DNA of 32,545 nucleotides from Halanaerobiaceae bacterium. Lineage in GTDB: Bacteria; Bacillota; Halanaerobiia; Halanaerobiales; Halarsenatibacteraceae. Made by a program: the position numbers and the translations under genes. Position 1 is the stretch's first letter, and each line of letters starts with the position of its first letter. Location: positions 1-32,545 of the forward strand of contig SLSL01000085.1 of NCBI GenBank assembly GCA_007130465.1, written 5' to 3'. This document shows, in pieces, positions 17,283 to 28,891 of the stretch. The notes beneath the pieces are model-generated. The model saw only the letters and a list, made by a program, of their open reading frames with translations, was not told the DNA's origin and did not search any database.

Positions 17283-18146
17283 CTAAAACTCTAGTCCACT
17301 TAAATAATTTCTAAATTCTTTACCTATATCTTCTCTTCTTAAGGCAAATTCCACTGAAGCCTTCAAAAAGCCTAATTTATTCCCAACATCATAGCGTTCA
17401 CCTTCAAAGTCATAAGCCTCCAGCCTTCTTTTCTCAGCAAGAGTTTTTAATGCATCTGTCAACTGAATTTCTCCACCCTTGCCTGGCTCTGTTTCAGCTA
17501 AAATAGGAAATATATCAGGTGTTAAAACATACCTTCCTAAAACAGCTAAATTTGAAGGTGCTTCTTCAGGCTCAGGCTTCTCAACCATATTACTCACTCT
17601 TGCTCTTCTTCCTGAACGTTCACTACATTCTACTGATCCATAAAGACAGATATCTTTCTTTGGAACTTCCTGACAGCCAATAACTGGTGATTCCGTCTCT
17701 TCAGCATGTTCAATTAACTGTCTGGTTACAGGCTTATCATTAACAATAATATCATCTCCAAGAAGAACTGCAAAAGGTTCATCTCCTACAAAGGCTTCAG
17801 CACAGGCGACAGCATGGCCAAGCCCTAACTGCTCCTTCTGCCTGACTGTATGTATTGTGATTAAATCAGATATTTTTTCAATCCTTTCAAGCAAGTCATA
17901 CTTCTCTTTTTCTTCAAGGACTAATTCAAGTTCAAGGTCATGATCGAAATGATTCTCAATACTTTCTTTACCTTTACTTGTAATTAATAGTATCTCTTCG
18001 ATGCCTGATTCTACAGCCTCTTCAACAACATACTGAATTGTTGGTTTATCAACAATTGGCAGCATCTCTTTGGGAATAGCTTTAGAAGCTGGCAATAACC
18101 TGGTCCCATAACCTGCTGCCGGGATCACCGCTTTTTTAACTCTCAT
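17283..18146 (-). CDS. galU: UTP-glucose-1-phosphate uridylyltransferase
   Basis: MRVKKAVIPAAGYGTRLLPASKAIPKEMLPIVDKPTIQYVVEEAVESGIEEILLIT; ATG 18146 preceded by GGGGG rather than ORF start 18218. Confidence 0.95.
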   Translation of the reverse strand: MRVKKAVIPAAGYGTRLLPASKAIPKEMLPIVDKPTIQYVVEEAVESGIEEILLITSKGKESIENHFDHDLELELVLEEKEKYDLLERIEKISDLITIHTVRQKEQLGLGHAVACAEAFVGDEPFAVLLGDDIIVNDKPVTRQLIEHAEETESPVIGCQEVPKKDICLYGSVECSERSGRRARVSNMVEKPEPEEAPSNLAVLGRYVLTPDIFPILAETEPGKGGEIQLTDALKTLAEKRRLEAYDFEGERYDVGNKLGFLKASVEFALRREDIGKEFRNYLSGLEF

Positions 18147-18175
18147 AAATATCTGCCCCCTTAATTTTTTAAAGT

Positions 18176-18206
18176 AAAAACCGACCGGCAACTTTCTACC
18201 GGCCGG
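18176..18206 (-). terminator. Intrinsic terminator downstream of the phosphohexomutase gene
   Basis: Minus strand CCGGCCGG-TAGAAAGTTG-CCGGTCGG followed by TTTTTA. Confidence 0.8.
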
Positions 18207-18230
18207 AATTATCTCCAACTAAAACTACTT

Positions 18231-19961
18231 TTATGTTTTGTCAATCATCTCCAGGAACTCTTCTTTTAAAATTCCCAAACTGGAAGCTGCCTTTTCTTCT
18301 GAATTAGATCTAACTGCAAAATAAAACTTCAACTTAGGCTCTGTTCCAGAAGGACGAATTGTGATTTTACTTTCGTCAGCCAGAATAAACTGAAGAACAT
18401 TAGACTCTGGGAGATTAATCTCTTTTTCTTCTCCAGTACTAAAATCCTTTGCAACTTTATTTAAATAATCTTTAAAGACAACTACTTTTTCTCCTGCAAT
18501 TTCAGCAGGGCAGTCCTCTCTTAATGAAGCAATTATTCTCTCAATCTCTTCCTGGCCTTCTTTGCCTTCTAAACGCATTGATTCAAGATCTTCTAGGAAA
18601 AAACCATGTTCTTCTCTAAGTTCAGAAAGCCTTTGAAGTAAATTAATTTCTCTTTCTTCTTTATAATAAAGAACCATCATCGCAAGCAATGCAGCAGCAT
18701 TAACAGCATCTTTATCTCTAACATAAGTTCCAGTCAAAAAACCAAAGCTCTCTTCAAAGCCCAGGATGAACTCTTCATCAGTTGCCTCCATCTTATTAAT
18801 TTCATCACCGATATATTTAAAACCAGTTAAGACATCTTTAACTTTAGCTCCATATTTATCAGCTATAGGCTTAATCATCTCTGTAGAAACGATCGTTTTA
18901 ATTATTACAGGAAATTCAGGCAATAAATTCTCTTCTTGCTTCCTGCCTAAAAGATAATCTGCCATCAAAACTCCAATCTCATTGCCATTAAGAGAAGTAT
19001 AACTATCTCCATCTTTTATTAAAGCTCCGAGCCTATCTGCATCAGGATCTGTAGCCATAATTAAATCTGGATTATAACTTTCAGCCAATTCTAAAGCTAA
19101 TGTATATGCTTCCCTCTCTTCTGGATTAGGACTTGAAACAGTGGAAAATTCTGGATCTGGCTCAGCCTGCCTCTGTACAACCATCATCTCTTTAAAACCA
19201 AGATCACTTAAAATATTCCGTACCGGTTTATTGCCAGTACCATGAAGTGGAGAATAAATAATCTTTATATTATTACCTGCTTTATTTGCAAGCTCAACAT
19301 CTGGTAAGACCTCAATTATTGCCTCTTTATATTTTTCATCCATATCTGAACCTAATAATTCAAAGAGACCTTCCTCTTCAGCTTCTGATTTTTCTATCCT
19401 TTTAATTAAAGAAAAATCATCAAGTTCATTTATTTCGGCAATAACCTTCCTGGCTTTATCAGGAACTAACTGGCAGCCATCGCTCCCATAAACTTTATAA
19501 CCATTATACTCAGGTGGATTATGGCTTGCCGTTATAACTACACCTGCTTCTGCATCTAATTCCCTAACAGCAAAGGATAATTCTGGGGTAGGTCTTAATT
19601 CATTAAAAAGATAAGCTTTAATTCCATTACCGGCAAGCACAAGAGCAGCTTCTTCTGCAAATTCTCGAGATTTATGTCTGGAATCATAGGCAATTACGAC
19701 ACCACTATCTTTTCCTTTTTCACTATAATTAATAACATAATTAGCAAGCCCCTGGGTAGCTTTTCTTACTATATATTTATTCATCCTATTTGTTCCAGCA
19801 CCCATCTTGCCTCGCATGCCCCCGGTTCCAAATTCTAAATTCTTATAAAATCTATCTTCTATCTCCTGCTCATTATCTTTAATTGATTCTAATTCTTCTT
19901 TTATCTCTTCATCAAAATAATCATTTAATAACCAATCACGGTATTTCGACTTATAACTCAA
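18231..19961 (-). CDS. Phospho-sugar mutase (phosphoglucomutase/phosphomannomutase)
   Basis: GTGGMRGKMGAGTNRMN, GVVITASHNPPEYNGYKVYG, MATDPDADRLG, FGFEESFGFL-like ILGFEESFGFLTG, ITIRPSGTEPKLKFY. Confidence 0.95.
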   Translation of the reverse strand: MSYKSKYRDWLLNDYFDEEIKEELESIKDNEQEIEDRFYKNLEFGTGGMRGKMGAGTNRMNKYIVRKATQGLANYVINYSEKGKDSGVVIAYDSRHKSREFAEEAALVLAGNGIKAYLFNELRPTPELSFAVRELDAEAGVVITASHNPPEYNGYKVYGSDGCQLVPDKARKVIAEINELDDFSLIKRIEKSEAEEEGLFELLGSDMDEKYKEAIIEVLPDVELANKAGNNIKIIYSPLHGTGNKPVRNILSDLGFKEMMVVQRQAEPDPEFSTVSSPNPEEREAYTLALELAESYNPDLIMATDPDADRLGALIKDGDSYTSLNGNEIGVLMADYLLGRKQEENLLPEFPVIIKTIVSTEMIKPIADKYGAKVKDVLTGFKYIGDEINKMEATDEEFILGFEESFGFLTGTYVRDKDAVNAAALLAMMVLYYKEEREINLLQRLSELREEHGFFLEDLESMRLEGKEGQEEIERIIASLREDCPAEIAGEKVVVFKDYLNKVAKDFSTGEEKEINLPESNVLQFILADESKITIRPSGTEPKLKFYFAVRSNSEEKAASSLGILKEEFLEMIDKT

Positions 19962-20058: not shown

Positions 20059-21159
20059 TCACTTTACAGGTTTAAATGAACGAATAACTTTTATAATCTC
20101 ATTAATGTTCTCATCACTTAGTGCAGGATGAACCGGTATAGAAATAACCTGCTTGGATGCTTTTTCAGCTTCAGGACAATTAAAACTCCCATACCCCATT
20201 TTTTTATAAATTGGTTGCTGATAGGCAAGTCTAGGATAATGAATTCCATAACCAATTCCATTTTCTTTAAGATGCTCAGCCAGAGCATCTCTATGCCCAT
20301 TAATTACCCTAATAGTATACTGATGGAAGACATGTGACCGCTTTTCAGCTACTTTTGGAGTAACTAGCCAATTTAAATCAGATATTCCTTCAGTTAATTT
20401 CATAGCATTTTCTCTCCGGGATTTATTAAAATCATTTAATTTTTTCAGCTGTTCAAGACCAATAGCAGCGGCAATATCTGTCATCCTATAGTTATAACCT
20501 AATTTTTCATGATAATAACGATCAGTCAAACCATGATTTATTAATAATTTAGCATTATCGGCAACCTCTTTATTCGAGGTGACAACAATCCCACCTTCAC
20601 CAGTCGTCATATTTTTAGTAGGATAAAAGCTAAAAACACCTGCAGTCCCTATTCCGCCAACTGGTTCACCTGCAAATTCAGCTCCATGAGCCTGGGCAGC
20701 ATCTTCTATAACAATTAGATCATATTTTTTTGCAAGCCTCATAATAGTATCCATATCTGCAGGTTGACCAAATAAATGAACTGGCATAATGCCTTTGATA
20801 TCAGGATCTTCCTCCAATTTTTTTAATACTTTATAAGAATCAATATTATATGTTATAGGATCAATATCAACAAATACTGGCTCAATCCCACTATAGAGCA
20901 ATGAATTGCAACTTGCAATAAATGTAAAGGGAGTCGTTATAACCTTATCTCCCTCCTTTAGGCCAGTTGCTTTAACAGCAACATCTAATGCAGTGGTGCC
21001 ACTGGTAGTAGCAATGCCATAATCTGCGCCGACATATTCAGCAAATTCATTATTAAATTTTTCCACCTTTGGTCCAGAAGCAAGCATTCCGCTATCAAGG
21101 ACCTGCATAACATTATTTTTTTCTAAATCTGTAATTTCTGGATTTGCAATTGGAATCAT
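20059..21159 (-). CDS. gnnB: DegT/DnrJ/EryC1/StrS aminotransferase, GnnB-like
   Basis: GIATTSGTTALDVAVKATGLKEGDKVITTPFTFIASCNSLLYSGIEPVFVDID, VIEDAAQAHGAE, GVFSFYPTKNMTTGEGG (PLP Lys). Symbol rests on context with lpxA and an oxidoreductase. Confidence 0.75.
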   Translation of the reverse strand: MIPIANPEITDLEKNNVMQVLDSGMLASGPKVEKFNNEFAEYVGADYGIATTSGTTALDVAVKATGLKEGDKVITTPFTFIASCNSLLYSGIEPVFVDIDPITYNIDSYKVLKKLEEDPDIKGIMPVHLFGQPADMDTIMRLAKKYDLIVIEDAAQAHGAEFAGEPVGGIGTAGVFSFYPTKNMTTGEGGIVVTSNKEVADNAKLLINHGLTDRYYHEKLGYNYRMTDIAAAIGLEQLKKLNDFNKSRRENAMKLTEGISDLNWLVTPKVAEKRSHVFHQYTIRVINGHRDALAEHLKENGIGYGIHYPRLAYQQPIYKKMGYGSFNCPEAEKASKQVISIPVHPALSDENINEIIKVIRSFKPVK

Positions 21160-21175
21160 TATATTAAAACCCTTT

Positions 21176-22162
21176 CTACTGTGTTCTTGCAATATCTATT
21201 TGTTTAGCCTGATTATAAACTTGATGTTGAATTACCTTGGTAAGTTTCAGTGCTTCTAAACCATCTGAACCGTTAATTAAAGGCCTTGTTCCATTATTTA
21301 TGCAATTAATAAAATGTGCTAGCTGTGATTTTAAAGGCTCTTCATCATTGCTATAAGTCTCTTCATGTTCATTTGTTCTCTTATATTCAGAGCTATCAGC
21401 CATCATCTTTTTACGCCCAGTTATAACTATTTTGCGATGTAAATAATCAAGTTCAATATAAGAATTAGTTGTGGTTATTGATAAAGCCCTAACTTTTTTC
21501 CTGGTCACTCTACTGGCTGTTAGCGTTGCGATAGCTCCATTGGCAAGTTGAAAGTTAGCAACAGCATAATCCATATGCTTTTCTGATTCAACCCTTCTTG
21601 CAGTAGCAGATACATTTGTTATATCTCCTGAAACCAGAGAACTAACTACATCTATATCATGGATCATTAAATCTTGAATCACATCAGTATCATCAATTCT
21701 AGGATCATAAGGACCCATCCTCTCAACATGTAAAGCAACTATCTCTTCATCTTTTAAAATCTCTGGTAATGCTTGAATTGCTGGATTAAATCTTTCTATA
21801 TGTCCAACCTGTACAATGAGATCCTTCTTTTTGGCAGCATTCAAAATAGCCTGGGCTTCCTCGACTGAATTTGTAATAGGTTTCTCAATTAAAATATGTA
21901 ATCCCTTATCAATAGCTTTCATTGCAAGTTCAAAATGAGTGGTTGTAGGTGTAGCAATATTTACTGCATCAACTTCTTCCATTAAATCTTCGGCTGAATT
22001 ATATGCTTTAACACCATAACTTTCAGCAATCTCAATATTTCTTTCTCTATCAAGGTCAAATACACCTTTTAAATCACAAAGATGTTTTAAAGCTGCATAT
22101 GACCTAACATGATTTCTTCCCATACTCCCAACACCGATTACACCAATCTTAACTTTACTCAT
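21176..22162 (-). CDS. gnnA: Gfo/Idh/MocA oxidoreductase, GnnA-like (UDP-GlcNAc 3-dehydrogenase candidate)
   Basis: KIGVIGVGSMGRNHVRSYAAL Rossmann motif, VDAVNIATPTTTHFELAMKAIDKGLHILIEKPIT; next to lpxA and gnnB-like gene. Confidence 0.75.
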   Translation of the reverse strand: MSKVKIGVIGVGSMGRNHVRSYAALKHLCDLKGVFDLDRERNIEIAESYGVKAYNSAEDLMEEVDAVNIATPTTTHFELAMKAIDKGLHILIEKPITNSVEEAQAILNAAKKKDLIVQVGHIERFNPAIQALPEILKDEEIVALHVERMGPYDPRIDDTDVIQDLMIHDIDVVSSLVSGDITNVSATARRVESEKHMDYAVANFQLANGAIATLTASRVTRKKVRALSITTTNSYIELDYLHRKIVITGRKKMMADSSEYKRTNEHEETYSNDEEPLKSQLAHFINCINNGTRPLINGSDGLEALKLTKVIQHQVYNQAKQIDIARTQ

Positions 22163-22185
22163 AATTTATTCATTTCCTCCTAATT

Positions 22186-22977
22186 TTAGCGACAGATTCC
22201 CCGTGAACTACTCTCAATAAATGCAGTTAACTCAGTAATCTCCACTGCCTCAAACTCATTTTTAATTTTCTCAACAGACTGACTAATATTTAAACCTGAA
22301 TAACAGATATACTCATAAGCTTTTGCCATAATTAATTTGAGCTCTTCTCTTGGACATTTTCCCAATCCTGACAATTTAGCCGGATGTCCTTCCGCCTTAA
22401 AAAATGGAGGTAAATCTTTAATAACCTTTGAAGAACTACTTAAAATAGAAGCTCTGCCTATTCTAACAAATTGATGAATCCCTACCTGATTGCCAATTTC
22501 AGCTTCTGAGCCTATCTCAACATGGCCTGCAACCTGTGTATTATTACCAATACTTATCCCATCACCTAATTGACAGTCATGGGCAACATGTACAAATGCA
22601 GATAAATAATTACCTGAGCCAATTCTTGTCTCCCCAGTATCTTTAGTCCCTCTATGAACTGTCACCCCTGGGCCAAAATAATTATCTCGTCCAATTACCA
22701 ACTGAGTTGATTCATTCTGATATCCAGTATGTTGAGGAGGGTAACCAAGCAAAACTCCACGACCAATATGATTCCTATCGCCAATAAAGGTCTTACCTAT
22801 AATTTCTACATCTGCCTCTATTACAGTATTTTCACCAATAACTACATTTGGCCCAATCATTACACGAGGACCTATCTTTATACCAGAACCTAAACTTGCC
22901 TCAGAAGATATTCTGGCAGATTCAGCTACATCTAAATCTAACTCCTGCTTGCCTGTCATAATTAATTTCATCTCCAC
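22186..22977 (-). CDS. lpxA: Acyl-ACP--UDP-sugar O/N-acyltransferase
   Basis: Hexapeptide repeats; LGYPPQHTGYQ, FVHVAHDCQLGDGISIGNN catalytic His region, GNQVGIHQFVRIGR. Confidence 0.93.
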   Translation of the reverse strand: MEMKLIMTGKQELDLDVAESARISSEASLGSGIKIGPRVMIGPNVVIGENTVIEADVEIIGKTFIGDRNHIGRGVLLGYPPQHTGYQNESTQLVIGRDNYFGPGVTVHRGTKDTGETRIGSGNYLSAFVHVAHDCQLGDGISIGNNTQVAGHVEIGSEAEIGNQVGIHQFVRIGRASILSSSSKVIKDLPPFFKAEGHPAKLSGLGKCPREELKLIMAKAYEYICYSGLNISQSVEKIKNEFEAVEITELTAFIESSSRGICR

Positions 22978-23054: not shown

Positions 23055-24920
23055 TTAAAGGTCAAGGTCAAAACTAAAGGAAATCGCTGGTCTATCATTA
23101 GATAGTTCAGCTTCTATTCCATAGCTGTAGCAATCCAATCTTCTTGTTAAACCTATATTAATTCTATCCCATTCAGACTTGTCTCGCTCATATTTACCAG
23201 AAAACTCAATGCTAACACTGGATTTAGGAGACTCTGTAGGTATCCTAAAATTGATTTCTGGCCAGTATGACTCCTTTTCAGCCTTATCATCTCGTTCAAG
23301 ATATGGATCACCACTGGCCCAGACCCGTTCCTGGCGCAAACCTCCAGAAACTGAATAACCAGATTCTGTCTCCTGCTCAAATCTTAGACCAATTCCTGTA
23401 ATCATATTTGCATAGGAGCGTTGTTCAGGCCTATTTAAATAATAATACCAGTTATAATCACCTCTAGCTTCTACAGTCCAGCCATCAGTTATTTCCACAG
23501 AACCAGCCCAGCCAGGTTTAATCTCTATATGGCCTGTCTCCCTGCCTTTTTCATTTAATCTCCCCATACCTGCAGCCAGATTAAACCCATGGGGAAGAGA
23601 TTTTGATATATCCAGATAGGGTAAATATTCCAGACTATAGCCTGAGCGATATCTCATTCTCCAATCTAAATAATTACTTCCAGCAAGTTGATAACTCTGT
23701 CTATCCAATTCACCATTTCTATAATCCTGATAAAAACTAATATCAATTCCATCAAGCCTATTCCTTAATAAATATTGCTGGCGATATTCATCAGACATAA
23801 AATCAAAGGTATAATCATATTTAAACCTGAATGGTGAAGGATTATAATCAAAAGTTAATTCTAAAGGTTTTGCTATACCTGCCTCATCCCTTCCATCTTT
23901 TATATACTCAAGTTCTCTGCTCTGTTTACCACTAATAATAAAATCCTCTGTCAACTGATGATTCCAGCCTGCAAAATAACGTTCAGAAATTTCTTCTTCC
24001 TCATTATGATATAAAAAGCCTGTTTTAATCTCAAAATAATCAACAGGTTTATAGGTTAATATCGACTCAAAAATCTCTTCATACTCCAACTCGTTATTAT
24101 CAGGCTCATCAATCTCTTCCCTGGAATAACTTGTGTTAAGCTCTAAATTTTCTGCTAGACTAAAGTAATTAGTAGTACTGAAAAGCTGCCGACCTCTCTG
24201 AGTATTAGTGAAATAAAAGCCACCTGAAGTTCTATCGAATAACTCATAATTGTATTCCAATTCAAGATATAACCCCTCAACAGTATCATATCCTATTTGA
24301 TATGTCGGAACCGGTCTGGATAATCTCTCCTCGCCAGTCTCTTCATCTTTTTCATAATGTAATACATAACTGCCTAGAGTAAATATCCTGTTATTCCCCC
24401 AGTAAAAAGAAACATCTTCAGCTACAGCTCTATCTCCTGGGTATATTTTAATTGTGTCTGCCTCTAATCTATAATGAGGATCAGGCTGAATACATGGTGT
24501 TAGAACAGCTTCCTCAACTTCAATGGCGTGATCCATTTCACTAACAATAGCTATCCTGCCCCCAGTAAAATTAAGACTATCAATCTCACTTTCTGCTGCT
24601 AGAATCTGGCCTTCGCCGATATTATAATTAAAAAATAATTCTTCACCTTTAATACTCTCTTCTTCAGTCCTCAGTTTAACATCCCCGGTAGCCCTGATTT
24701 CATTGTTAACTATATAAACAATAATATCATCAGCTTCAACCTCTAAACCAGAAATCCGAAAAAAGACATTTCCACTGGCTGTTAACTCCTGCAGATCATA
24801 ATCATATGTAATAGTATCTGCATCAATAATATATGGTTGATCTTCAGCGACCACTATAGGTGAAAACAAAATCACAAACAAAAAGAGCATTAATACAGAT
24901 CTACTCAGCCTACTCATCAT
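23055..24920 (-). CDS. lptD: LptD/OstA-like LPS assembly outer-membrane protein
   Basis: Signal peptide, OstA domain PYIIDADTITYDYDLQELTASGNVFFRISGLEVEADDIIVYI..., long beta-barrel region ending ISFSFDLDL. ATG 24920 with GGTGG; ORF extends to TTG 24935. Confidence 0.8.
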   Translation of the reverse strand: MMSRLSRSVLMLFLFVILFSPIVVAEDQPYIIDADTITYDYDLQELTASGNVFFRISGLEVEADDIIVYIVNNEIRATGDVKLRTEEESIKGEELFFNYNIGEGQILAAESEIDSLNFTGGRIAIVSEMDHAIEVEEAVLTPCIQPDPHYRLEADTIKIYPGDRAVAEDVSFYWGNNRIFTLGSYVLHYEKDEETGEERLSRPVPTYQIGYDTVEGLYLELEYNYELFDRTSGGFYFTNTQRGRQLFSTTNYFSLAENLELNTSYSREEIDEPDNNELEYEEIFESILTYKPVDYFEIKTGFLYHNEEEEISERYFAGWNHQLTEDFIISGKQSRELEYIKDGRDEAGIAKPLELTFDYNPSPFRFKYDYTFDFMSDEYRQQYLLRNRLDGIDISFYQDYRNGELDRQSYQLAGSNYLDWRMRYRSGYSLEYLPYLDISKSLPHGFNLAAGMGRLNEKGRETGHIEIKPGWAGSVEITDGWTVEARGDYNWYYYLNRPEQRSYANMITGIGLRFEQETESGYSVSGGLRQERVWASGDPYLERDDKAEKESYWPEINFRIPTESPKSSVSIEFSGKYERDKSEWDRINIGLTRRLDCYSYGIEAELSNDRPAISFSFDLDL

Positions 24921-24944
24921 TATACCACCTTTCAAACAACTTTC

Positions 24945-25016: not shown

Positions 25017-26162
25017 TTAAAAACGAATTTCAAAACTTGCCTGAACATTAGATTCAACCTGATCAAAATCTGGTATTTCTCCTGCTGTATTTAAACTATC
25101 TAACATCTGATAACCAAAAGATAATCTACTGCTATCAGTAACATTTAAATCCAATCCAATATCAAGTTCCCAGCCACCCTGGCTCTCTAATGTGTCCTGA
25201 AGGCTATTAATATCAAACAATTTATAAGACGTACTTAAAGTGGCTAAATCAAGTAGATCAAGTTCTAGACCTGTGATTGTCTGCCGCATTTCTTCATAAT
25301 TATCTATCTGGTAACTGGCCCTGATATTACCTAAATTATCCTGATATTCAAGGCCGAAAACAGTAGAACTTCCTCCAGACGGATTAAATATATTGTCTGA
25401 TATATAGTCAGCAGAAACAAAAACATTACTTACAGGCTGATAGGATATACCAAGTTGAGCCATTTCACTTAACTGTTCTACAAATTGTGTCTGGATTTCC
25501 TCTGCTGCTCTAGCCGCCTCAACATCAGTCTCCTGATTTTGCCTGTCATTAAAATTATCAAGATTTGCTGCTGAAACAGTATTTGAATCTTCATTAATAT
25601 CATCTATCAAGTCATCTTCATCAATTTCAAGATTATTATCATTTTCTTCCCAGGAAGAACTTGACCTCTGACCGATTCCAGCTCTAATTGTCATACTAGG
25701 ATTCATATCATATGAAAGATTAAAACTTGTTAAACTCTCCTGACCTCTTTCAGTTTCCCCTGATCTCTGATCAGCTGAAATATAAGCCTCCCTGCCAAAA
25801 GGAAGATCGAGCCTGTTGTCATTAGAACTATTTAATTGGAGTACCTCTCGCAAATCTCTAATCCCCTCGGATTCTTGAACCATTGAGAATAATTCATCTT
25901 CTTCATATTGTTCCTCGCCAAACTGAGAAGCTAATTTAAATAATTTTTCCTGACCCTCATCAGAAAACTGCCTGAATTCATCATCAGGAAGTTCAAGACC
26001 TGTACTGTCAAGAGCAAAGACCTGCCTGACATCATTACCGTTAAAACTCTGCAACCAGGTATCTGAATTGCTCAAGTTATCTGCCTCTACTACTCCAGGC
26101 ATAAATATATTTATTATTATAAATGCGAATATTATAGCTAAAATCAACCTGGTTTGACGCAT
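25017..26162 (-). CDS. Uncharacterised exported protein, candidate outer-membrane beta-barrel
   Basis: Signal peptide MRQTRLILAIIFAFIIINIFMPGVVEA; C-terminal amphipathic strands and terminal Phe (QASFEIRF). ATG 26162 follows GGGGTGGAG. Confidence 0.6.
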   Translation of the reverse strand: MRQTRLILAIIFAFIIINIFMPGVVEADNLSNSDTWLQSFNGNDVRQVFALDSTGLELPDDEFRQFSDEGQEKLFKLASQFGEEQYEEDELFSMVQESEGIRDLREVLQLNSSNDNRLDLPFGREAYISADQRSGETERGQESLTSFNLSYDMNPSMTIRAGIGQRSSSSWEENDNNLEIDEDDLIDDINEDSNTVSAANLDNFNDRQNQETDVEAARAAEEIQTQFVEQLSEMAQLGISYQPVSNVFVSADYISDNIFNPSGGSSTVFGLEYQDNLGNIRASYQIDNYEEMRQTITGLELDLLDLATLSTSYKLFDINSLQDTLESQGGWELDIGLDLNVTDSSRLSFGYQMLDSLNTAGEIPDFDQVESNVQASFEIRF

Positions 26163-26277
26163 GGTCTCCACCCCCTTTGTACTTATACATAGTTATTAAT
26201 TAAATTATAACAAATAAAACACTAAAATGCCAGCTTTTTCAAAAGAAAAAAGAGAATTTTATTTAAGCAGGAATTCC

Positions 26278-26358: not shown

Positions 26359-26760
26359 ATGAAATCACTGACTTATAAGACTAAAGTAATAATTTTTACA
26401 ATGATAATAGTATCTATATTATCTTTTTTAATAATTAATAATTACTCCCAATCTTCAGCATATTATATGAAAGTCTCAGAACTTCTAGATGAACCTCCTG
26501 CCACAGATAGATATTTAAGAATTTCTGGAGTTCTTCTTCCTGATACTATTACCTGGAACTCTGAAACAGAAAACCTGGAGTTTACTATTAGAGATCCAGA
26601 AACAGAGGACCATCTTAATATAAAATTTAATGAAGAAGAACCAGATAACCTAAAAAATAATGACCTGATCCTGGTTGAAGGTTATTATGAGAATAACCAT
26701 CTAAAAGCTGAACAGATACTCTATCAATGTCCTTCTCAGTATGAGGAGCAGGTAAATTGA
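26359..26760 (+). CDS. ccmE: CcmE-type heme chaperone, Cys variant
   Basis: N-terminal TM, OB-fold-like YLRISGVLLPDTITWN...LEFTIRDPETEDHLNIKFNE...LILVEGYYENNHLKAEQILYQCPSQYEE; CxxxY replaces HxxxY. Confidence 0.8.
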   Translation: MKSLTYKTKVIIFTMIIVSILSFLIINNYSQSSAYYMKVSELLDEPPATDRYLRISGVLLPDTITWNSETENLEFTIRDPETEDHLNIKFNEEEPDNLKNNDLILVEGYYENNHLKAEQILYQCPSQYEEQVN

Positions 26761-27485
26761 TCGCTGGAAAAAATAGAATATCAGATTATAAAATCAGTAA
26801 CCTTAAATTTTCTAGAGATGGCCTAAATATAATAAATAATATTAGCATGGAATTATCACCAGGCCAGATAACAGCTCTTTTTGGCCCAAATGGGTCTGGA
26901 AAAACAACATTCCTTAAACTACTTGCCGGTATCTGGACACCTGATTCTGGAGAAATTAGCTGGTTAAATAAATCTAATCTTAAAGATTTTAATATAGGCT
27001 ACATAGGCCACGAACTATTTCTCTATAAAGATTTAACTGCCAGAGAGAATCTTGAATTTTTCGGCCAATTGTATAATACTAATGACTTAAATAAAAAAAT
27101 AAAAAACTTAATAAAAGAAGCCGGATTAGAGCTCTGGTTAAATGAACCTGTCAGGAAATACTCTAGAGGAATGCAGCAAAAACTGACTATCTGTCGAGTA
27201 TTTTTAAATTCACCAGATTTACTTCTCCTTGATGAACCTTTTACCGGGCTTGATAGTAAATCAACCAACTTCCTAATAAAGTTAATTACTCAGAACAAAG
27301 AAATTCCTGTGCTCTTTACCAGCCATAATCTCAGACAGGGGTTTAAGCTTGCAGATAACTGGCTTATACTAAAAGCTGGAAAGATAATTGAGCACTCTCA
27401 AAAGCAAAACAATAATACTCTTGATACATTTATAAAAAACTATAATAAAATACTTGCAGGTGACCTATTAGATGAAGATGCTTAA
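26757..27485 (+). CDS. ccmA: CcmA-like ABC ATPase (cytochrome c maturation)
   Basis: Walker A GPNGSGKTT, YSRGMQQKL signature, LLLLDEPFTGLD; TTGA overlap with ccmE stop; TTG start with upstream GGAG. Confidence 0.87.
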   Translation: MIAGKNRISDYKISNLKFSRDGLNIINNISMELSPGQITALFGPNGSGKTTFLKLLAGIWTPDSGEISWLNKSNLKDFNIGYIGHELFLYKDLTARENLEFFGQLYNTNDLNKKIKNLIKEAGLELWLNEPVRKYSRGMQQKLTICRVFLNSPDLLLLDEPFTGLDSKSTNFLIKLITQNKEIPVLFTSHNLRQGFKLADNWLILKAGKIIEHSQKQNNNTLDTFIKNYNKILAGDLLDEDA

Positions 27486-28152
27486 AACTGCAGCCCTATT
27501 AATAAAAAAAGATATCCAGTTAGAAAAAAATACCGGCCAGCTTTCCGGTTCAATTTTACTCTTCGCCCTGCTTGCAGGAACAATTTTTAGTATGGCCTTC
27601 CTACCTGGCCAGGACCAGCTGAGCAACTTTTTCCCAGGCATCTACTGGTTCACCCAAATCTTTGCAGTAATGCTGGTATTAAATAGATCATTTATCCGAG
27701 ATACAGAAAACTCCTGCCAGACAGCAATTCTTATGGCACCAATTACCAGAGAAATGCTTCTGCTGGCAAGAATTTTTGCAAATTATCTGCTTTTTTTATT
27801 ATTAACAGCAATAATAAGTCCTGTGCTCTTTATTCTTTTTGATGCTTTCCCTGTCTCAGGACCACTCTGGTTATTACCAATCGTTTTATTGGTCAATTAT
27901 GGCCTGGCAGCAACTGGTTCTTTACTGGCAGCTCTGGCAACATCTACAAGAATCAGCGATATTCTTTTACCAGTATTACTATTACCAATCCTGATACCTC
28001 TCATTCTTGCTGCTATCGAAACAACCCGGGCATTATATTTTAGCCAGTTAGATTATGACCAACTCTTCTTCTGGTTATTATTTATGCTCATCTATAATAT
28101 TATCTCAACATTAATCAGCTATCTTTTAGCACCATACTTAATGACCGAATAA
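27472..28152 (+). CDS. ccmB: CcmB-like heme exporter permease
   Basis: Six hydrophobic segments, opening AALLIKKDIQLEKNTGQLSGSILLFALLAGTIF; position between ccmA and ccmC. Confidence 0.87.
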   Translation: MKMLKTAALLIKKDIQLEKNTGQLSGSILLFALLAGTIFSMAFLPGQDQLSNFFPGIYWFTQIFAVMLVLNRSFIRDTENSCQTAILMAPITREMLLLARIFANYLLFLLLTAIISPVLFILFDAFPVSGPLWLLPIVLLVNYGLAATGSLLAALATSTRISDILLPVLLLPILIPLILAAIETTRALYFSQLDYDQLFFWLLFMLIYNIISTLISYLLAPYLMTE

Positions 28153-28183
28153 TATATAATATAAATTGTTGGAGGCCTAAATC

Positions 28184-28891
28184 ATGCTAGATTCATTAAA
28201 ACAACTAGAAAAATATCTTTTTTATATATTAGGAATAATAATTCCTTTATCAATTCTCGCAGTCTTTCAGTATGCCCCTCAAGAAAGAGTCATGGGCGAT
28301 GTCCAGCGTATATTCTATTACCATGTCGGCTCAGCCTGGGTCGGATTCTTTGCCTTTTTTATAGTATTTATTGCCAGCATTCTTTATCTCCGCAATAAAG
28401 AACCTGGCTGCCATAGAATTTCCCTGGCTTCAGCAGAAATAGGGGTTCTCTTTACAACTATAGTTCTAGGATCAGGCATGCTCTGGGGCCGTTCCGCCTG
28501 GAATACCTGGTGGACCTGGGACCCAAGATTAACAACCTCTCTAATACTATGGTTAATGTATCTTGGCTATCTATTTCTCCGGCTGGCACTCCAGGGCGAA
28601 GAAAATGAAAAACAACAGCGACTGGCCGCAGTATTTGGAATCATAGCCTTTGTTAATGTTCCCCTGGTCTTTTTCTCAATCCGCTGGTGGAGAACAATCC
28701 ACCCAGTTGTAATAGAGATTGGCGGAACCGGCTTAAGCCCTAGAATGATACAGGTTCTAATCTTTTCTGTTCTGGCTATCTCAATGCTATACCTACAACT
28801 GGTTTCTCTAAGAATTAAACAACTTAAAAATAAAGACCGACTTGAAAAAATACAGAATATCTTAAGAAGAAAGGAGGGTATGGCTCCTTAA
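28184..28891 (+). CDS. ccmC: CcmC/CcsA-type heme-handling protein
   Basis: RIFYYHVGSAWVGFFAFF and tryptophan-rich WGRSAWNTWWTWDPRLTTSLILWLMYLGYLFLR; TM topology. Confidence 0.93.
   Translation: MLDSLKQLEKYLFYILGIIIPLSILAVFQYAPQERVMGDVQRIFYYHVGSAWVGFFAFFIVFIASILYLRNKEPGCHRISLASAEIGVLFTTIVLGSGMLWGRSAWNTWWTWDPRLTTSLILWLMYLGYLFLRLALQGEENEKQQRLAAVFGIIAFVNVPLVFFSIRWWRTIHPVVIEIGGTGLSPRMIQVLIFSVLAISMLYLQLVSLRIKQLKNKDRLEKIQNILRRKEGMAP
28871..28889 (+). promoter_or_regulatory. Hairpin enclosing a Shine-Dalgarno-like sequence upstream of ccmD
   Basis: AAGGAG-GGTATGG-CTCCTT, perfect 6-bp stem, at the ccmC 3' end. Confidence 0.4.

Follow-up and report, generated by a model that had tools for sequence, protein, structure and literature searches.

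A probable split of LpxA into complementary half-active paralogues, on at least two occasions, in diderm Bacillota

The window analyzed here, i.e., the whole 32,545-nucleotide stretch of contig SLSL01000085.1 from a Halanaerobiaceae bacterium, carries on its minus strand a series of genes that are transcribed in the following order: a conserved cassette gene of 384 residues (25017..26171), assigned by synteny and devoid of any Pfam or NCBIfam match in profile searches; a gene encoding an LptA/OstA-like outer-membrane protein (23055..24935), which a weak LptA match of residues 31-91 and synteny suggest to be LptD-like; lpxA2 (22186..22977), encoding an LpxA-family acyltransferase that is the putative catalytic subunit discussed below; gnnA (21176..22162), encoding a Gfo/Idh UDP-GlcNAc 3-dehydrogenase; gnnB (20059..21192), encoding a DegT/DnrJ/EryC1 aminotransferase; a phosphohexomutase gene (18231..19961), whose position downstream of gnnB is conserved; and a gene encoding a GalU-type UTP--glucose-1-phosphate uridylyltransferase that exceeds the NCBIfam cut-off (17283..18218). 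The likely start of gnnB is the ATG at 21159 (MIPIANP...), the equivalent of the position where the other members begin with MIPIANP. A sequence-only reading of this DNA had reported lpxA, Gfo/Idh and DegT genes on the same strand at 20059-22977, and our gene calls place all three there. These genes nearly touch each other (22977-20059) and are an operon. LpxA2 passes the cut-off of the NCBIfam model PRK05289 (237.8 bits for a cut-off of 226) and stays under that of TIGR01852 (218.6 bits for a cut-off of 231).

The top curated family of the window GnnA is UDP-GlcNAc 3-dehydrogenase, with a score (262 bits) that does not reach the cut-off of 450, the next family being at 142 bits. Its best PDB sequence match is 7bvj (175 bits; next, 76), which is named in the structure library as the GnnA of Acidithiobacillus ferrooxidans, and 7bvj is also the best match of its predicted fold (pLDDT 91; E 2e-33; next, 2e-23). 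The two proteins share 43% identity over 242 aligned residues. In the trees, GnnA is set apart from WbpB by a long branch and GnnB, whose gene adjoins gnnA, lies outside the WbpE/QdtB clade (SH-aLRT 99, in a tree that includes no characterised GnnB sequence). Neither enzyme thus groups with WbpB or WbpE, in agreement with the sequence-only reading, which had taken them as GnnA/GnnB-like. The trees and the ranking of PDB and fold matches rule out the WbpB/WbpE (UDP-GlcNAcA3N) assignment, for which a true WbpB/D/E-like trio present in genome G032 provided the contrast. The genome of the window encodes only one other relative of this oxidoreductase family, a weak one (59 bits). The GnnA proteins of the genomes studied here form a clade of their own, sister to Bacillus glycan enzymes and not to the GnnA of A. 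ferrooxidans. The closest outside relatives of GnnA and GnnB are encoded by Bacillus clusters harboring a hexapeptide acetyltransferase gene between gnnA and gnnB; we infer that such a cluster would give the same UDP-GlcNAc3N intermediate.

In what follows, G000 designates the genome of the window and other G codes the compared genomes, f families, C contigs and L loci. G000 encodes a second LpxA outside the window, at the start of contig C261 (G000:C261:1-690; L039, L002), followed by lpxI and lpxB. The contig edge truncates this operon copy by ~30 codons at its 5' end, upstream of all the sites scored below. LpxD is encoded on contig C8 and LpxK on contig C128. LpxC was not found in G000, whose contig ends cut exactly at the position of lpxC in the same-genus genome G025, and the LpxC proteins of the genomes from families f1 and f7, including the same-genus one, keep all their zinc and catalytic residues. 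The absence of lpxC, lpxD and lpxB, which the sequence-only reading had given as an argument against its own proposal, is thus not what is observed, lpxD, lpxI, lpxB and lpxK being present in G000 and an intact lpxC occupying the gap in its relative. LpxK gave no match in family f7 (G033-G037) nor in genus g6 of family f3 (G002-G004), which possess the earlier lipid A genes. A literature search turned up no published lipid A structure from Halanaerobiales. Among the lpx genes of G029 (L065:8918-12343), the LpxA and LpxI frames contain long low-complexity charged insertions (ESKRASES-like) that are absent in relatives.

In LpxA, adjacent subunits delimit the cleft where the active site lies (PMC6408518, PMC6286764). 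One subunit was shown to contribute H125, D126, H122, Q73, G143 and Q161, and the other one N198 and R205, which contact uracil (PMC6286764); Q161 and R258 were placed on one protomer and G155, M170 and G173 on its neighbor (PMC6408518). However, the latter work puts N198, R204 and R205 on the Q161-bearing chain, which conflicts with the former. We scored eight residues for the catalytic side (E. coli numbering: Q73, T102, H122, H125, D126, G143, H160 and Q161) and nine for the partner face (R93, E94, M118, G155, M170, G172, N198, R203 and R204). The face list was set after viewing the Halanaerobiales copies and dead copies found elsewhere, but without recourse to the catalytic copies of the second order described below, which alone are a clean test.

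The window LpxA keeps all eight catalytic residues and none of the nine residues of the partner face, and the operon LpxA of the same genome keeps none of the former and all of the latter. Eleven operon copies from families f1 and f7 retain the face (8-9/9) and have a catalytic score of 0-2/8, the LpxAs concerned having lost H125, D126, G143, H144, H160 and Q161. All the cassette copies (16/16) have an intact catalytic side (8/8) with a face of 0-7/9, and D74 and K76 are replaced in every one of them. Every relative whose operon copy has lost catalysis shows this reciprocal split, its cassette copy having lost most of the face residues. The 78 single-copy LpxAs scored do not show it: their face reaches at least 5/9 (9/9 in 57 of them) and their catalytic side at least 6/8. 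The dead operon copies have dN/dS ratios of 0.02-0.11, within the range of LpxI and LpxB, indicating that they are under purifying selection. In four genomes (G004, G006, G022 and G023), the operon copy is complete (face 9, catalytic 8) and the cassette copy has a face of only 3-4, which looks like an intermediate stage of the split.

In the LpxA tree, all the cassette copies are grouped in a single clade (100/99) next to the operon copies. The dead Halanaerobiales copies constitute one clade in the tree built from all columns and are separated, with long branches, in the tree built without the trait columns; the concatenated LpxD/LpxI/LpxB tree groups f1 and f7 with weak support. The negative association between the sites kept by the two copies was not significant (odds ratio 0.97; rho -0.17, p 0.14), and the site-wise complementarity per genome reached p_less 0.01-0.04 in only four of nine pairs. 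Since this statistic is significant in some pairs only, the claim of complementarity rests on the specific walls involved and on the second order. For the window LpxA, AlphaFold gave a poor model (pLDDT 76), which had no PDB match under E 0.01 and was set aside.

A scan of 399 Bacillota genomes revealed LpxA in 84 of them, a few of which have extra copies. Six genomes belonging to a second, unrelated order (G234, G305, G411, G436, G437 and G439) present a mirror arrangement: the lpx-operon copy keeps catalysis with a face of 0-3/9, whereas the extra copy, located beside a DegT gene, has a face of 8-9/9 and a catalytic score of 0-1/8. The reciprocal split is therefore the same as in Halanaerobiales, but the locations of the genes are swapped. 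In catalytic copies, charged or bulky residues take the place of the acyl-groove glycines 155 and 172. A single, complete LpxA is encoded in f110 and f130, the sister families in the second order. In G438, the catalytic copy has a face of 3/9 and no partner was visible at first sight; a partner was predicted and then found by search (G438:C5:102158-102992). It is 92% identical to the partner of G234 and contains an apparent frameshift or stop, due either to an assembly error or to real decay. The tree built without the trait columns rejects the grouping of the catalytic copies from both orders in one clade (AU p 0.0015), so that their origins in the two orders are independent. Although the genomes are mostly metagenome-assembled, G234 and G411 are complete one-contig genomes, and the presence of the pair in many genomes, including these two, rules out chance or contamination. 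Additional LpxA copies with a damaged catalytic side and an intact face were also detected, alongside a complete LpxA, in G108, G394 and G161. The extra LpxA of G161 on contig C18 (L195:1051-1848) has an intact H125 and the changes G143E, H160Y and Q161E, adjoins no lipid A genes and is perhaps at an early stage of the split.

These patterns of residue retention make it likely that LpxA is in these bacteria an obligate hetero-oligomer whose composite active site is made by two paralogues and which, among Halanaerobiales, serves the GlcNAc3N route alone. In the cleft between subunits, the catalytic wall would come from the window LpxA and the opposite one, with the acyl groove and the uracil/ACP contacts, from the operon LpxA, and a mixed trimer would have a complete site only at the interface between a catalytic and a partner subunit. 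We infer in this way the physical complex, its substrate and its product: GnnA would oxidise UDP-GlcNAc at C3, GnnB would transaminate the resulting compound into UDP-GlcNAc3N, the LpxA hetero-oligomer would N-acylate its 3-amine, and LpxC, LpxD, LpxI, LpxB and LpxK would continue towards a lipid A whose primary chains are amide-linked. The catalytic subunit is probably dedicated to UDP-GlcNAc3N in Halanaerobiales because its gene is co-transcribed with gnnA and gnnB, and the prediction of a UDP-GlcNAc3N-based, amide-linked lipid A is well supported. The proposal of an LpxA step in an all-amide route, made in the sequence-only reading, can be retained for the route but is incomplete for the enzyme, since the window LpxA has only half an active site and the operon LpxA has lost catalysis. 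The lack in G000 of any LpxA working alone on UDP-GlcNAc nevertheless strengthens the all-amide part and, as families f1 and f7 have no LpxA able to do so, all their lipid A should carry amide-linked 3-chains. More generally, LpxA has probably split at least twice in diderm Bacillota into an obligate, complementary half-active pair, the split in Halanaerobiales coinciding with a presumed switch from ester to all-amide (GlcN3N) lipid A through an intermediate stage. A literature search, whose scope did not extend to most subscription journals, returned nothing relevant on LpxA heterotrimers.

The same GnnA-GnnB-LpxA2 route could yield an amide-linked lipid A with LpxA2 working as a homotrimer whose second wall has been remodelled, the dead copy having an unrelated role, for example as a regulator binding UDP-sugars or acyl-ACP. 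Such a role would be in line with the conservation, under purifying selection, of the uracil/ACP side (N198, R204) in the dead copies, and the cassette copies have also drifted from canonical LpxA elsewhere, including at D74 and K76. However, a remodelled homotrimer leaves unexplained why the wall lost in one copy is the one kept in the other, with at least two independent origins and swapped locations, as well as the correct prediction of the G438 partner; the replacement of both acyl-groove glycines in catalytic copies also speaks against it. We therefore regard this alternative as rather unlikely and favor the hetero-oligomer.

Two other explanations appear still less credible than a remodelled homotrimer. 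GnnA and GnnB could supply a surface glycan (UDP-GlcNAc3NAc or similar) instead of lipid A, LpxA2 being merely LpxA-like, as the Bacillus clusters with their acetyltransferase and the loss of D74 and K76 might suggest. Nevertheless, no LpxA other than LpxA2 has catalytic residues in f1 and f7, where LpxD, LpxI, LpxB and an intact LpxC are kept, and the neighbor of the cassette is an LptD-like gene rather than glycosyltransferase genes, which makes a glycan function very improbable. Alternatively, the cassette could be an ordinary GnnA/GnnB one, as first proposed, next to a second LpxA that is a functionless decaying relic. The loss of the catalytic histidines and the insertions found in some copies (G026, G029) would fit with decay, but not the low dN/dS, nor the position in the operon, which is conserved across eleven genomes from two families, nor a face kept at 8-9/9. 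The dN/dS values and synteny rule out a pseudogene, and this last explanation is hardly tenable.

A close GnnA is encoded by 18 of 38 Halanaerobiales genomes. The lpxA2-gnnA-gnnB arrangement recurs in genomes of five families of the order, where GnnA shares 61-91% identity with the window one, and is not due to chance. Families f1, f6 and f7, as well as some members of f3 and f4, have the full cassette with its own LpxA. Halothermothrix orenii (G031, PMC2626281) has neither a close GnnA nor the cassette, and its single LpxA is complete. Some soda-lake Halobacteroidaceae carry LptD-gnnA-gnnB without any linked LpxA and have a single LpxA in the lpx operon (including L117 and L118); it retains H125, has lost K76 and, in several cases, has also lost H144. 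In G030, the cassette (L042:3696-5651) comprises LpxA2 directly followed by GnnB, and the operon LpxA is dead; no close GnnA was found in this genome, which has 20 weaker Gfo/Idh genes. In Riflebacteria and several other phyla, a GnnA-like Gfo/Idh gene belongs to the lpx operon, where it separates lpxI or lpxA from lpxB and has no adjacent gnnB (L131, L133, L135, L144, L175, L176, L179 and L180). GnnA carriers include soda-lake lineages (PMC6146748, PMC10536098). However, the cassette also occurs in a shale-labelled isolate and in metagenome-assembled genomes whose names refer to Soudan and GSL, settings that are not known as alkaline, and the resistance to alkali put forward in the sequence-only reading is not supported as a general rationale; an adaptation to alkaline conditions is suggested only for the soda-lake lineages that carry gnnA and gnnB alone.

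In E. coli LpxA, K76 contacts the sugar ring oxygen (PMC6286764). This residue is lost in all the cassette copies, in the single LpxA of the soda-lake genomes with gnnAB and in G350 (f130); in f110, H144 is replaced instead of K76. Among the single-copy genomes tested, three of four with an altered K76 or H144 have adjacent gnnA-gnnB genes (G258, G350 and G125, but not G264), compared to none of eight unaltered single-copy controls. Exceptions are L138, G009, G011 and G013, where GnnA is present and the K76/H144 site of LpxA is unaltered. Since D74 and K76 are lost in all cassette LpxAs, the acceptor could also differ from UDP-GlcNAc3N.

The GnnA-GnnB-LpxA pathway is known from A. ferrooxidans and also from Leptospira, Campylobacter and rhizobia. 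As in A. ferrooxidans, the UDP-GlcNAc 3-dehydrogenase and DegT aminotransferase genes are located here beside an LpxA with catalytic H125 and D126, but this linked LpxA is an extra, half-degenerate paralogue and a catalytically dead lpx-operon LpxA is retained. LpxA, which catalyzes the first step in the synthesis of lipid A and is a target of antibiotics, is described as a homotrimer. The paralogues studied here share the fold family and the catalytic side of the homotrimeric enzymes (E. coli 1lxa, Leptospira 3hsq), but each has retained a single wall of the cleft, and neither would form a complete site as a homotrimer. A parallel exists in the gamma-class carbonic anhydrases of plant complex I, heterotrimers with a left-handed beta-helix fold whose active sites, located at the interfaces, are completed by inactive subunits; their function is unrelated to that of LpxA. 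The LpxA pairs amount to an evolutionary dissection, repeated independently, of which residues belong to which side of the active site, and suggest how the chemistry of lipid A could change stepwise without loss of the outer membrane. They also lead to a testable prediction, all-amide lipid A across a whole clade of halophilic diderm Firmicutes, and to a warning for annotation: catalytically dead LpxA paralogues are named as active, and the lpx-operon copies reported here would pass as the LpxA of their genomes.

Two other parts of the window deserve mention. At 26359-28891, CcmE-like, CcmA-, CcmB- and CcmC-like genes for haem handling and export lie beside hemL and a gene encoding an AsnC/siroheme-decarboxylase-like regulator, which suggests c-type cytochromes. 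The protein encoded at 469-1542 has a match to PF24793, the N-terminal domain of the plant enzyme glucosamine inositolphosphorylceramide transferase, and a weak one to GH43, which is unusual for a bacterium.
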